This document shows positions 2,839 to 18,799 of a stretch of DNA of 64,000 nucleotides, piece after piece (within the stretch, counting starts at the first letter, position 1; each line of letters opens with the position of its first letter). The DNA is from Gelidibacter gilvus (GTDB lineage Bacteria; Bacteroidota; Bacteroidia; Flavobacteriales; Flavobacteriaceae). A program made the position numbers and the translations under genes. A model generated the notes under the pieces. The model did not search any database. It saw nothing but the letters and a program-made list of their open reading frames with translations, and had not been told where the DNA came from. Location of the stretch: contig NZ_SDDZ01000007.1 of the NCBI RefSeq assembly GCF_004115975.1, positions 1 to 64,000 of the forward strand, in the 5' to 3' direction.

Positions 2839-3792
2839 TTATAATCTAAGAATAGCCGTTTTCTCTGACTGAAAAAGTTCATTCTTGGGTAATTCAGCTA
2901 GAGCGAGTTCGATGTGTTTTAGTGCCTCTGCTTGTTTGCTTTGCAGTTTGTAGATCTGCGCCAATCGGTAGTTTGCCCACGCTTTTGGCAGATCATCTTT
3001 CACTGAAAAATTAATAATGTATAGGCGAAGGTGCTTTTCACCTTTGCTCAATTGGGTGTTGTTTTCAGCTGCCACTTTTCCTATTTGGTAATTCAAGTCG
3101 TTATTATCATGCTTAACCTGAGCGGCTTCCATATTGGCAATGGCTTTATCTGGCTGCTTTTGGGCTTCATATAAATTAGTGAGTTTCTGGAAACATAATA
3201 GAGATCCACCTTCCACAACTGCGAGCTTATAATACTTTTCAGCAGTTTTAGGTTCTTTATCGTAGTCATAGATATAGCCCTTTGCCAAATAGCCATCTAC
3301 TTTTGAAAGGTTTTGCAACTCATCGGCATATTTAAGTGATTTACTCATGCTACCACCAATAATTCCCGGTAACTGCATATACAATTCCACCAAGGCCCAG
3401 CGGGTTTCAATATGCTTTGGATCAAGCTCTGCCGCTGTGATAAATGCCTGCTTGACATCACCTATAATGGCTAGGGCTTTCATTTTATTGACCGACAAGG
3501 CTTTCATGCCCAAAGCGCCACCATATTTATAATGATAGTTCGCGGTTTTGGGGCTTAAATCCACCAATTTCTTATAGTTTTCGATGGCGCCATCCCATTT
3601 TTTTTGATGGCCATACGCATCTCCCAAAAGCTCAATACCTGTAACGTTAGTAGGGTTATTCTTCACATAAGTAGTCATGAGCGCTTCCGCTTTTGAAAAT
3701 TGTTTGTCAGCCAAAAACTGTTCAGTTTTTTGAATATCGGTCTGACCTAATGCCGCTAATGAAAAAAAGAAAACATAAATAAAAAATTTCAT
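2839..3792 (-). CDS. Secreted tetratricopeptide repeat protein
   Basis: A 317-residue exported protein made of TPR helices, probably a periplasmic scaffold. The start was set at the ATG at 3790-3792, because it begins a clear signal peptide (MKFFIYVFFFSLAALGQ). A longer frame adds 12 polar residues in front of it. TPR-type repeats run along the whole protein, for example around KNNPTNVTGIELLGDAYGHQ and WANYRLAQIYKLQSKQAEA near the end. No catalytic motif is visible and the partner is unknown. It is the only gene between mpl and the macroglobulin gene, which is transcribed in the opposite direction. Confidence 0.82.
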   Translation of the reverse strand: MKFFIYVFFFSLAALGQTDIQKTEQFLADKQFSKAEALMTTYVKNNPTNVTGIELLGDAYGHQKKWDGAIENYKKLVDLSPKTANYHYKYGGALGMKALSVNKMKALAIIGDVKQAFITAAELDPKHIETRWALVELYMQLPGIIGGSMSKSLKYADELQNLSKVDGYLAKGYIYDYDKEPKTAEKYYKLAVVEGGSLLCFQKLTNLYEAQKQPDKAIANMEAAQVKHDNNDLNYQIGKVAAENNTQLSKGEKHLRLYIINFSVKDDLPKAWANYRLAQIYKLQSKQAEALKHIELALAELPKNELFQSEKTAILRL

Positions 3793-3919
3793 AGTGAAGT
3801 TTATGAAATCAAAAATAGACATTCTCACGCACTATTCTTTATTCGATATTGGATATTCGATATTTACCCAACGTCAATTGTTGTGGTATTGTTTTTGCTT
3901 ATTGATAAAAAGCAATAAA

Positions 3920-11935: not shown

Positions 11936-12128
11936 CTATTACGCAGAGATGCACGGAGAAATCACGGAGGATTCACAGAGTTCTTTTGAGATCTGCGTCA
12001 ATTTGTGAAATCTGCGGGAAAGTTCACCGAAAACTATTACGCAGAGATGCACGGAGAAATCACAGAGTTCCACAGAGTTTTTTTGATATCTGCGTCAATC
12101 TGTGAAATCTGCGGGAAAGATCATCAAA
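11936..12128. repeat. Tandem direct repeat, two ~95-base units
   Basis: Two units, 11936-12029 and 12034-12128 (period 98), start CTATTACGCAGAGATGCACG and end AATCTGCGGGAAAG. They differ by small indels and substitutions. Each unit is itself partly palindromic (CGCAGAGAT...ATCTGCG). Related sequence occurs at 2766-2815 and, in a cacaaag version, at 16696-16785 beside the GxxExxY gene. Confidence 0.8.
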
Positions 12129-15982: not shown

Positions 15983-16678
15983 ATGAGAGATATATTCGGA
16001 AAAGCATTATTGGATTATTATAACGGGAATTATACGGAAGATGTTTTCACCTCTACAAACATATCTGATGAGGATGAACTGCCTTTGCCCTTCCTTTTCA
16101 GAGATTATGATGAAATGCCACCATTAGAAAAGAAAGCCATGGAACATGTTAAGGGCAGGGTCCTGGATGTTGGTTGCGGTGCGGGAAGTCATGCCTTGTA
16201 TCTTCAAGAACAAGGTTTTGACGTGAAGGCTATTGATGTCTCAAAAGGTGCCATAGAGGTTTCAAAAAGACGTGGAATCAAAAATGCCGAAGTCATTGCG
16301 CTTTTAGATGAAACCGAGAAATTTGATACCATTCTATTATTGATGAATGGAAGTGGCATTTTTCAGGAACTGTCAAAAGTACCCCACTATTTGAATCATC
16401 TCAAGTCACTATTAAATCCTGGGGGTCAGATATTACTCGATTCTACAGATATCATATATATGTATGAGGATGAGGACGGTGGATATTGGAAGGATTTGAA
16501 TGCGAATTACTACGGCGAACTCGATTATTTGGTGAGTTATAAAGGCGAATCAGAACCACTTACCACTTGGCTTTATATCGATTTTGAAACTTTAGTAACG
16601 GCTTGCAAATCGGTGGGATTACAATGCGAACTGATAATGGAGGGTGAGCATTATGATTATTTGGCGCGAGTTTATTAA
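15983..16678 (+). CDS. Class I SAM-dependent methyltransferase
   Basis: A 231-residue cytoplasmic methyltransferase. Motif I is LDVGCGAGSHALYL at about residues 60-73, with the acidic motif II in VKAIDVSKGAI and the motif-III-like ILLLMNGSGIFQEL. The N-terminal ~50 residues are an extension seen in relatives, beginning RDIFGKALLDYYNG. The substrate cannot be told. It is a single gene upstream of the GxxExxY gene, separated from it by an inverted-repeat element. Confidence 0.85.
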   Translation: MRDIFGKALLDYYNGNYTEDVFTSTNISDEDELPLPFLFRDYDEMPPLEKKAMEHVKGRVLDVGCGAGSHALYLQEQGFDVKAIDVSKGAIEVSKRRGIKNAEVIALLDETEKFDTILLLMNGSGIFQELSKVPHYLNHLKSLLNPGGQILLDSTDIIYMYEDEDGGYWKDLNANYYGELDYLVSYKGESEPLTTWLYIDFETLVTACKSVGLQCELIMEGEHYDYLARVY

Positions 16679-16695
16679 AGATTAAAGTTGCGTAT

Positions 16696-16785
16696 TGTTA
16701 CACAAAAGACACAAAGAAGGCACAAAAAACACGAAGAAAATCTTTGTGAAACTTTGTGCTTTCTTTGTGTAACTTAGTGTTACAA
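16696..16785. repeat. Large imperfect inverted repeat before the GxxExxY gene
   Basis: The left arm (GTTACACAAAAGACACAAAG, then GGCACAAA) pairs with the right arm (TTTGTGC, TTTCTTTGTGTAAC), so the transcript could fold into a long hairpin. It belongs with the purine-rich cacagag/cacaaag repeats at 2766-2815 and 11936-12128. Its right edge is about 20 bases from the GxxExxY start codon. Confidence 0.65.
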
Positions 16786-16803
16786 CTTTCAATCCATTAA
16801 ATT

Positions 16804-17178
16804 ATGATTATCGAAAATAATCTGTCGAACAAGATAATTGGTTGTGCAATTGAAGTTCACAAACAACTCGGTCCTGGACTATTAGAATCTGCATATAAAG
16901 AATGTTTATTTCATGAACTTTCAGTATTAGGACTTAGCACCAAAAAAGAACTGGCATTACCAATTGTGTACAAAGACATAAAATTAGATCATGGTTATAG
17001 AATTGATTTACTGGTAGAAAACAAAGTCGTTATAGAAATTAAAACCGTCGAAAACTTTACAGATGTACATCTCGCTCAAGTTCTTACTTACCTTAAGCTT
17101 GGAAATTACAAATTAGGTTTATTACTAAACTTCCATGTAACAACCTTAAAAAACGGTATAAAAAGAATCGTGCTGTAA
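16804..17178 (+). CDS. GxxExxY family protein
   Basis: A 124-residue protein of the GxxExxY family (TIGR04256). The naming motif is at 25-31 (GLLESAY in LGPGLLESAYKECL). D68, E78-I-K80 in RIDLLVENKVVIEIK and Q92 in AQVLTYLKL give the pattern of a PD-(D/E)xK nuclease-like core. No activity has been firmly assigned to the family. Genes of this kind are frequent in Bacteroidota, often in several copies. It is preceded by a long inverted repeat and ends 4 bases before the convergent amidohydrolase gene. Confidence 0.9.
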   Translation: MIIENNLSNKIIGCAIEVHKQLGPGLLESAYKECLFHELSVLGLSTKKELALPIVYKDIKLDHGYRIDLLVENKVVIEIKTVENFTDVHLAQVLTYLKLGNYKLGLLLNFHVTTLKNGIKRIVL

Positions 17179-17182
17179 GAAG

Positions 17183-18799
17183 TTACTGTTTCTCCCCACC
17201 CACAAAAGTTCCTTCCACTTTAATATTCGGGATTTCATGAACCTCAACGGTCATAATATCTTTATCAAGGATGATGAAATCGGCGAGTTTACCTTTTTCG
17301 ATGCTTCCTTTTTCATTCTCCTCAAAATTGGAATAAGCCGCCCAAATGGTCATACCTTTTAAAGTTTCCTCTCGGCTCAATGCGTTTTCCATTTGAAAGC
17401 CATCCTTTGGATATGCTTCCAAGTCCTGACGGGCTGTAGCGGCATAAAACGTCAAAAACGGACTCACTTGTTCCACTGGGAAGTCAGTTCCCAAAGCGAC
17501 TTTTCCGTAAGCGTCCAATAACTGTTTGTTAGCGTAAGCTCCTTTAATACGTTCTGATCCTAAACGGTCTTCTGCCCAATACATATCGGAAGTGGCATGT
17601 GTTGGCTGAATCGATGGCATCACGTTTTTATAAAGCTCAAAATCTCCAGGTGACACAATCTGCGCATGCTCCACACGCCAGCGTCTATCCGATTGATCTT
17701 TTAGTACTTTATTGTAGGTTTGCAATACCGCATGATTGGCAGAGTCGCCGATAGCATGAGTATTCATCTGAAATTCAGAGTTTGCAATTCGTTTTGCGGC
17801 ATTATTAAAGGTTTCTAAATCCGTTACCATCAATCCAAAATGGTTTGGCTTATCACTATATGGTGCTCTTAACATAGCTCCTCTTGAACCCAAGGCACCA
17901 TCGGCATAAAACTTAAAACTACTAACGTTAAGCCTATCGTTTTTACTCACCCCTTTGTTCAAATAATAATCGACGTTTTCTTTTGATCCCGACACCATGG
18001 CATAGACTCGGATTTTTAAATCGCCTGATTGTTGTAAACTATCAATAAGTTCAATGGCTTGTCGAGATAAACCCGCATCATCAACTGTGGTCAATCCGTA
18101 ATCAAAACAGATTTTCTGAGCGTCCAAAAATGCATTGATCAGTTCTTTCTTAGAAGATTTTGGCCAATGCGCCATCACTAAATTCTCTGCATTATCTACT
18201 AAAACTCCTGTCAATTCTCCGTTTTCAATAACGACTTCTCCACCACTCACTTTACTATCAACTGTTACTTTGCCCAAATCCAAAGCCGCTTGATTGGCTA
18301 AAATGGCATGCCCGTCAATACGCGTCAAAACGATTGGCGTATCAGGATACAGTGCATCCAATAATGCTTTATTAGGAAACTCCTTGACTTCCCAGTTATT
18401 TTGATCCCAACCACGACCTGTTATGAAGTCGAGGTTTTTTTCATTCTGAAATTCGCTGATGCGCTGAATGATTTCCTCAAAACTTTTAGTCCCCACCAAG
18501 TCAACCGATTGTTGGTTTAATCCCAATCCCAAGAAATGGCAATGCGCATCAATAAATCCAGGGACAATGGTTTTTCCATTAACATCGATGATATTGTTGG
18601 AAGCATATTTGTCCTGAATAGCTTTAGAACTTCCAACTTCGAGAAATTTTCCATCTTTAATAGCGAAGGCCTCGGCTTTATCAGAATTGTCATTTACCGT
18701 ATGAATATTGGCATTGATAAAAATCGAATCAACCTCAGTTTTTTCGCTTTCACAAGAAAAAATAAGGGCTACAAACAGGAGAACTAATAGTTTTTTCAT
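17183..18799 (-). CDS. Amidohydrolase family lipoprotein (YtcJ-like)
   Basis: A 538-residue metal-dependent hydrolase of the amidohydrolase_3 (YtcJ-like) group. The start is the ATG at 18797-18799, giving the lipoprotein signal MKKLLVLLFVALIFSC with Cys16 as lipidation site. The metal-binding HxH is H86/H88 in FIDAHCHFLG. Later HAIGD and GTDFPVE motifs supply further ligands and the catalytic Asp. The substrate is unknown; relatives act on N-substituted formamides or similar amides. It lies downstream of the fic gene on the same strand, but a terminator between them argues for separate transcription. Confidence 0.88.
   Translation of the reverse strand: MKKLLVLLFVALIFSCESEKTEVDSIFINANIHTVNDNSDKAEAFAIKDGKFLEVGSSKAIQDKYASNNIIDVNGKTIVPGFIDAHCHFLGLGLNQQSVDLVGTKSFEEIIQRISEFQNEKNLDFITGRGWDQNNWEVKEFPNKALLDALYPDTPIVLTRIDGHAILANQAALDLGKVTVDSKVSGGEVVIENGELTGVLVDNAENLVMAHWPKSSKKELINAFLDAQKICFDYGLTTVDDAGLSRQAIELIDSLQQSGDLKIRVYAMVSGSKENVDYYLNKGVSKNDRLNVSSFKFYADGALGSRGAMLRAPYSDKPNHFGLMVTDLETFNNAAKRIANSEFQMNTHAIGDSANHAVLQTYNKVLKDQSDRRWRVEHAQIVSPGDFELYKNVMPSIQPTHATSDMYWAEDRLGSERIKGAYANKQLLDAYGKVALGTDFPVEQVSPFLTFYAATARQDLEAYPKDGFQMENALSREETLKGMTIWAAYSNFEENEKGSIEKGKLADFIILDKDIMTVEVHEIPNIKVEGTFVGGEKQ

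Follow-up and report, generated by a model that had tools for sequence, protein, structure and literature searches.

GxxExxY genes and the short periodic repeats that adjoin them probably form one co-evolving module, in which a predicted unit-recognising nuclease and its repeats make up an autonomous element, gene-less hairpins are the non-autonomous counterparts, and the way of working is RAYT/REP-like. The association of gene and repeat, the geometry of the repeats, their co-variation with the protein, the conservation of gene and arms together at one site and the differing states of one site among related genomes were all computed.

The focal locus lies in a window of 64,000 nucleotides of DNA from Gelidibacter gilvus, whose genome is assembled as 4.63 Mb in 42 contigs. 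The relevant features of the window are as follows.

16804-17178, plus strand: GxxExxY (PDDEXK_3) gene, 124 aa, predicted small Cas4/lambda-exonuclease-like nuclease.
16701-16736, plus strand: left arm of the hairpin, units CACAAAA, CACAAAG, CACAAAA and CACGAAG starting at 16701, 16710, 16721 and 16730; spacing 9-11-9.
16742-16779, minus strand: right hairpin arm, made up of three CTTTGTG and one CTTAGTG (CACAAAG and CACTAAG on the minus strand); spacing 10-11-10.
11942-12018, no strand assigned: gene-less hairpin, first of a tandem pair, right end placed by eye; its dialect is a different one, CGCAGAG, CACGGAG and CACAGAG, with the opposite arm of CGCAGAT type.
12040-12114, no strand assigned: gene-less hairpin, second of the pair, right end placed by eye.
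2770-2835, no strand assigned: a further hairpin of this kind, imperfect and with no gene, in the gap between the minus-strand ORFs 1332-2687 and 2839-3828.

An inverted repeat directly ahead of the GxxExxY gene, with nothing else between, had been described in the sequence-only reading of this DNA, and this is confirmed. The hairpin at 16701-16779 consists of eight units of about 7 nt, four pointing each way, and the repeat alone fills the gap between the end (16678) of the upstream neighbour, a methyltransferase ORF (15983-16678), and the start of the gene; the other neighbour is an amidohydrolase. Folded as single-stranded DNA, 16694-16786 reaches −25.6 kcal/mol (shuffle mean −9.95, sd 2.35; 0 of 200 shuffles as good). 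Both arms lie upstream of the gene here, whereas in many relatives the gene stands between the two arms. The window holds 15 occurrences of a two-unit pattern with up to two mismatches, where 3.1 would be expected, and none of 100 shuffles reaches that count. Four PF13366 matches are present in the source genome, one with an internal stop, and all four copies adjoin periodic repeats by eye, in the dialects CACAAAG, CACAGAG and CGCAAAG. The tandem gene-less hairpins at 11942-12114 are very similar to each other and lie 98 nt apart, start to start. A known RNA family was considered as an explanation of the repeat and rejected, with no match at gathering thresholds in 16500-17300.

A set of 241 loci was assembled from whole-genome searches (61), named genomes (80 kept of 583 confirmed) and further stretches (100), and dropping two redundant loci left 239; for the dialect comparison proteins of fewer than 95 residues were also dropped, leaving 231. 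A held-out set of 76 stretches, including 16 new loci from one further search, was reduced to 72 by removing repeats. Because 100 of the main-set loci and 60 of the held-out loci were picked by hand from ranked match lists, strong matches are over-represented; most are from Bacteroidota. Two viral loci are included in the early counts of inverted flanks, unit orientation and lags and are omitted from all later ones.

The enrichment of the repeat beside GxxExxY genes, which the sequence-only reading had proposed as a check, is very strong: compared like for like, chains of at least two units are found in 286 of 472 single flanking windows and in 12 of 793 single control windows. Counted by locus, with a chain on either strand of either of the two flanking windows sufficing, chains are present at 181 of 239 loci. 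Where paired controls were available (126 loci), a chain is found at the gene in 106 and at 1 kb in three. Inverted matches between the two flanks score at least 16 at 155 of 232 measurable loci; in an earlier set of 143 loci, the two viral loci included, the counts were 101/138 at the gene and 6/130 in windows 1 kb away. Flank pairs taken from different loci reach the same score in 108 of 687 cases, a high figure that reflects dialects common to different loci. At a score of at least 20 the counts are 37/75 for GxxExxY genes and 8/275 for other ORFs of the same loci. The held-out set behaves similarly, with chains at 60 of 72 loci and inverted flanks at 54 of 72. At two loci (L114 and L130) the gene appears by eye to lie between two whole hairpins, one on each side, rather than in the loop of one.

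No chain of the searched unit type was found at 58 of the 239 loci. Several of the 22 of these that were displayed have other repeats by eye, and others have nothing obvious; one locus, L003, owes its place in the 58 solely to an internal stop, which caused its start to be misplaced. Twelve loci carry titles from outside Bacteroidota—Planctomycetota/Planctomycetales (two), Chloroflexota/Anaerolineales (two), Alpha-/Betaproteobacteria (three), Rhizobium, Treponema, Neomarinimicrobiota, Methanothrix and Prosthecobacter—and ten of these, nearly all 12 being bins, have an inverted-flank score of at least 16. The locus with the Rhizobium title (L104) has the same gene neighbour as in Flavobacterium and may be mis-binned. 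With the focal protein as query, matches were found in seven of 72,556 plasmid records and none of 50,697 phage records, and a pattern-limited scan of viral contigs gave two loci; on these counts carriage by phages or plasmids was rejected as the usual vehicle for relatives within reach of the queries.

Orthologous sites differ in content between related genomes. At the focal site, repeats are seen by eye in all nine Gelidibacter genomes: three (G000, G005 and G006) have a CACAAAG-type hairpin together with the gene, five have a CACAGAG/CGCAGAG-type hairpin with the gene absent, and G002 has mixed CGCAGAG/CGCAGAT repeats, also with the gene absent. A hairpin at this site in all nine could reflect long vertical retention with change in place. 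After the map gene, one element is present in seven of the nine genomes, frameshifted in G008, and G003 and G005 have there a GxxExxY gene of a different subfamily with a CACGAAT/CACTAAT dialect, the G003 copy being in pieces. No element was seen after map in 12 other displayed genomes, and in two more (G026 and G034) a GxxExxY gene follows what by eye is apparently the same map gene. At the G005 map site (L211), an apparent second copy of the map 3' end precedes the element, as if flank had been carried or duplicated. At the site before ssb, the gene is confined to G000 among the nine, and four genomes retain, by eye, remnants of the gene end.

A Flavobacterium site was examined in 30 of the 39 matching genomes and classified by reading. 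Two of the 30 have the gene, 11 a CRCARAG-type hairpin, six repeats of another dialect, three a GIY-YIG-like gene and six are empty, with two unclear, so that one and the same site may, depending on the species, be empty, hold a hairpin alone or hold the gene with its arms. A PF13366 match is present somewhere in all 17 of the genomes whose site has a repeat and no gene (in G222 only a broken or partial one), which is a small difference from the nine of 11 among genomes with neither gene nor repeat there. Inspection by eye showed no target duplications, and element-free sites exist. In three of the Flavobacterium loci (L385, L386 and L392), a small nuclease gene, which we take to be GIY-YIG-like, lies upstream of the orthologous gene beside a short GATGCTGAAATAAATTCAGCAT-type palindrome; this intergenic niche may thus also serve another small nuclease that has a hairpin of its own. 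Two GxxExxY loci, L390 and L149, have the 3' end of the gene and the downstream arm present twice in tandem.

These site states also fit a homing-type element, in which the gene-less hairpin is the target: the nuclease would cut it and the gene would be copied into the loop by way of the shared arms, leaving the target interrupted. Chains lie on both sides of the gene at 95 loci, out of 239 in all and 181 with at least one chain; they are compatible with this, as are the empty, hairpin and arms-plus-gene states of the Flavobacterium site and the differing dialects at the focal site in Gelidibacter. At the focal locus, however, the gene is not between arms, and there and elsewhere the hairpin stands intact beside the gene, so that the target is not interrupted. 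We regard homing as possible but unlikely, and prefer an element that spreads together with its gene-less derivatives.

Both the gene and its units look kept by selection at the map site. Among six orthologs there, dN/dS is 0.02-0.08 in 12 of 13 computable pairs and 0.19 in the other (two pairs could not be computed, and several dS values are saturated), and the unit columns are 90% and 96% identical, compared with 71% and 81% for the other columns there and 48.7% for fourfold sites. Conservation of arms and gene together is also what would be seen if the gene were an autoregulated nuclease or toxin-antitoxin-like gene whose arms serve as operator or RNA leader for its own control, with no mobility, and regularly phased, protein-matched sites adjoining the gene suit that account as well. 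It is nonetheless improbable: a chain pointing toward the gene is also present downstream in 136 of 239 loci, and hairpins of this type with no gene are found both in other parts of the genome and at orthologous sites.

The geometry of the units is regular. The commonest are CACAGAG, CGCAAAG, CGCAGAG and CACAAAG, and on both sides of the gene they are oriented toward it more often than away. Recurrence of 6-mers peaks at lags of 9-11, 20-21 and 30-31, and controls are without these peaks except for a rise at 21. Within chains, the mean distances between units one, two and three apart are 9.69, 20.02 and 30.47 bp, values that are constrained by the 8-13 bp limit of the chain rule; the lag peaks are free of such a limit. 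A spacing of about 10 bp corresponds to roughly one turn of the DNA helix per unit. Arms of four units follow a symmetric rule: the outer gaps are equal in 54 of 64 (shuffle maximum 31), in patterns such as 10-11-10 and 9-11-9, and the middle gap is the longest one in 54 of 64 (shuffle maximum 30), with corresponding held-out counts of 21/23 and 23/23. In 79 of 96 cases the two arms of a locus share the spacing of their outer pairs (permutation maximum 48), and the arms also agree in the letters of their units (r 0.55-0.93, n=117). Spacer letters match between arms no better than chance (0.40 vs 0.328, sd 0.05), and a self-hairpin score of at least 16 in the upstream 150 nt shows a modest excess (61/138 vs 42/130 in controls). 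These last two results led us to reject a fully base-paired hairpin as the conserved feature. Regular spacing, the symmetric rule and unmatched spacers together point to pairs of protein subunits reading DNA units, rather than a base-paired stem, as what is conserved.

The focal protein is a full member of the GxxExxY/PDDEXK_3 family, scoring 150.7 bits against TIGR04256 (cut-off 35) and 145 bits against PF13366 PDDEXK_3 (cut-off 22). The PD-(D/E)xK-like core of D68, E78, K80 and Q92 named in the sequence-only reading is invariant in an alignment of 18 sequences (A1); in a 66-sequence alignment (A2), E28, E78, K80 and Q92 are invariant and D68 is conserved in at least 90%. The predicted nuclease centre is likely intact. 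The structure predicted for the focal protein (mean pLDDT 96, pTM 0.89) has as its best PDB matches in Foldseek SSO0001 (4ic1), LHK-Exo and lambda exonuclease, with TM-scores of about 0.4-0.5 and no match at or below E 1e-3. We take SSO0001 to be a Cas4, and all three of these nearest folds to be DNA nucleases. PADLOC also gives a Cas4b match (E 6e-4), and the predicted fold weakly suggests Cas4/lambda-exonuclease as its nearest neighbour. A solved relative was sought by sequence and discounted, none being found up to E 1 for A2 and a single match at E 0.32 for A1. Cas4 proteins are characterised by a four-cysteine iron-sulphur cluster. GxxExxY differs from these Cas4/lambda exonuclease/RecB-type relatives in being only 124 aa long, in the weakness of the similarity, in having no cysteine in any column that is invariant or nearly so in A1 or A2, and in context, there being no CRISPR or phage recombination gene in the two focal neighbours that were scanned.

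The inverted arms and the stability of the focal hairpin, computed for DNA, might instead suggest processing at the RNA level, with transcripts of the two arms pairing and the nuclease cutting its own RNA. This is very improbable, since the spacers are unmatched between arms beyond chance, the spacing of about 10 bp is regular and the nearest folds are those of DNA nucleases; reading of the units on DNA is the account we prefer.

The focal units are of CACAAAG type, the 'cacaaag family' of the sequence-only reading, but this word is one dialect among several and was rejected as a defining feature. In the largest protein cluster (169 members) the leading recurrent 7-mers are CACAGAG (51) and CGCAAAG (37); elsewhere they are CACGGAT in cluster 4 (5/21), CACGAAT in cluster 6 (6/6) and GTCTGAA in cluster 5 (4/12), and two further clusters have no clear recurrent 7-mer. 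Within cluster 5, a clade of GxxExxY genes (L036, L039 and L359) has GTCTGAA...AGGATT repeats, a different word with, by eye, a similar period.

Loci share more recurrent 6-mers as their proteins become more alike. Among pairs below 70% identity the correlation of dialect with protein identity has a Mantel r of 0.314, reached in 0 of 500 permutations, and within the largest cluster r is 0.207 (permutation maximum 0.079). Sharing in same- versus different-genome pairs is 0.013 vs 0.017 at 30-40% identity (53 same-genome pairs), 0.032 vs 0.029 at 40-50% (37 pairs) and 0.094 vs 0.063 at 50-60% (25 pairs). The repeat dialect tracks protein lineage more than host; a small host effect is possible, as same-genome pairs are slightly more alike in several identity bins on direct comparison of the values.

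In the large cluster, base 2 of the unit (CAC or CGC) co-varies with residue 123 (Ile versus Val/Ala), and base 5 with residues 8-9. Dialect labels require at least three units, which 137 of the 169 members and 60 of the 72 held-out loci have. For residue 123 and base 2, z is 43 for the amino acid and about 0 for synonymous differences at codon 123. Among 26 pairs contrasting at base 2, chosen as independent by a greedy routine of our own, residue 123 is concordant in 17, discordant in one and uninformative in eight, and in a broader preference score over all columns residue 123 ranks top for base 2 (20:2) and residue 9 top for base 5 (17:2). Both residues were chosen on the first set, and the rule was recorded before the held-out loci were obtained and then tested on them. 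The residue-123 rule was right in 49 of 56 held-out loci, which are not phylogenetically independent and exclude four of the 60 labelled loci with another residue at this position. Residue 9 is weaker, with 17 of 24 held-out loci right (p 0.03) and a strict pair test of 3:0 with 21 uninformative. Among held-out columns, 123 ranks first for base 2 (0.45 bits) with column 3 close behind (0.41), and for base 5 column 8 ranks first and column 9 second. The focal protein itself breaks the residue-123 rule, having V123 with CAC units, and of the four copies in its genome two fit by reading and two (L002 and L004) do not.

Linkage of the gene ends to the arms was considered as a cause of the co-variation and rejected, as synonymous z averages about −0.1 to −0.6 by segment. 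It is about 0 at codons 9 and 123, and single codons reach 3 to 5, including codon 8 for base 2; synonymous sites are a weak control for kinship because they are largely saturated. The support for recognition of the units by GxxExxY is good but indirect.

Across 148 Bacteroidota genomes, hits to a three-unit pattern number 105 (control 8) in the 75 that have the gene and seven (control 5) in the 73 that lack it, with overlapping and gene-adjacent hits counted, 23 of the 105 coming from the window's own genome, and kinship uncorrected; at least two hits are found in 15 of the 75 and one of the 73. A match between the dialects of gene-less copies and those of resident genes was tried and rejected, r being about 0.25 and not significant in 14 genomes for one unit type. 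That the repeats are host features, such as terminators or simple slippage arrays, beside which GxxExxY genes merely settle fits the position of the first unit (median 12 nt past the upstream stop codon at the 85 loci where both were found), the other short-period repeat families scattered in the source genome and the slightly greater dialect similarity of same-genome pairs in some bins, but is the least credible reading of all given that dialect tracks protein identity, that the residue-to-base co-variation held in new loci and that three-unit hits concentrate in genomes with the gene.

For the preferred module, we propose that GxxExxY is a minimal PD-(D/E)XK (Cas4/RecB/lambda-exo-like) nuclease that would recognise the 7-nt units in DNA form. 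Residues 8-9 in its N-terminal helix would help to read base 5, and residue 123 in its C-terminal strand base 2. Subunits would bind in pairs to the four units of an arm, which lie about one helical turn apart as two pairs of equal spacing, and two inverted arms would either surround the gene or make a hairpin with no gene. Cutting by the nuclease most likely takes place at its own arms or close to them, after which repair or strand transfer would copy the hairpin, with or without the gene, to intergenic sites, often just past stop codons. Direct binding, cutting and copying by GxxExxY are what we infer. The outcome would be an autonomous element of arms plus gene and non-autonomous derivatives in the form of hairpins, as in RAYT/REP systems with an unrelated enzyme.

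In RAYT systems as described in PMC2817692, a small gene is flanked by inverted repeats, repeat and protein co-evolve, gene-less copies lie in intergenic regions, and the abundance of the repeat goes with the presence of the gene; further REP/REPIN features used for comparison come from PMC3116915. The GxxExxY family resembles this description in having a small gene between inverted repeats (155/232 loci and 54/72 held-out loci, the focal locus not among them), a co-evolving repeat and protein, and gene-less intergenic copies. As to abundance, the presence of GxxExxY-type repeats correlates with that of the gene before any correction for kinship, and the correlation for the cognate dialect does not reach significance (n=14 genomes). 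It differs in its enzyme, a predicted PD-(D/E)XK nuclease for which only GxxExxY/PDDEXK_3 models matched and no HUH/Y1 transposase domain, and in its repeat, an array of heptamers about 10 bp apart where REP is one palindrome of 20-40 bp. RAYT works on single-stranded REP according to PMC8266576, whereas GxxExxY would read double-stranded units. Since enzyme and repeat both differ, the GxxExxY system is not a member of RAYT/REP. The sequence-only reading had joined protein and repeat into one RAYT/REP-like unit; enrichment, co-variation, gene-less copies and site turnover bear this out in part, as an analogy, and the protein is not a RAYT.

Casposons are inverted-repeat elements that use a CRISPR-type nuclease. 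The GxxExxY element is partly similar in combining a nuclease of predicted CRISPR type with inverted repeats, and differs in its size of about 0.5 kb and in that the focal locus is without adjacent Cas1 or polymerase. No system known to us combines such an enzyme with such a geometry of repeats. A literature search, which took in no preprints and few subscription papers, gave no description of a GxxExxY gene with repeats; the papers that matched the repeat words appear to be on other subjects, and the passages found to contain the word GxxExxY only name the family. On these grounds the system appears to be undescribed, and its analogy to RAYT/REP calls for caution.

A broader claim, which could fall either way, is that GxxExxY genes are the autonomous members of an undescribed class of very small selfish elements in several phyla, with a minimal Cas4-like nuclease, helically phased heptamer arrays and a specificity set by residue 123 (base 2) and residues 8-9 (base 5), and that their gene-less hairpins make up a sizeable share of the intergenic repeats in Bacteroidota and other bacteria. 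The module gives a common family of no known function a specific, testable role, and suggests where one class of short repeats dispersed in bacterial genomes may come from. It also presents a small protein whose residues apparently encode which base is recognised, a code that a single amino acid swap could probe. Should mobility be confirmed, evolution would have solved the problem addressed by RAYT/REP systems a second time, independently.

Further repeats that are palindromic or of short period, CAGTCTCAGTCCCAG, TTCGGCGTTCGGTGTTCG, CAATCCACAATCG, GGACTGAGGACTGAG, TTGGAACTTGGAA, TTCCTGCGCAGGCAGGAA and GCGCAGTCGAAC, lie near GxxExxY-type repeats of the source genome (L264, L265, L266, L268, L272 and L275) and are partly interleaved with them.
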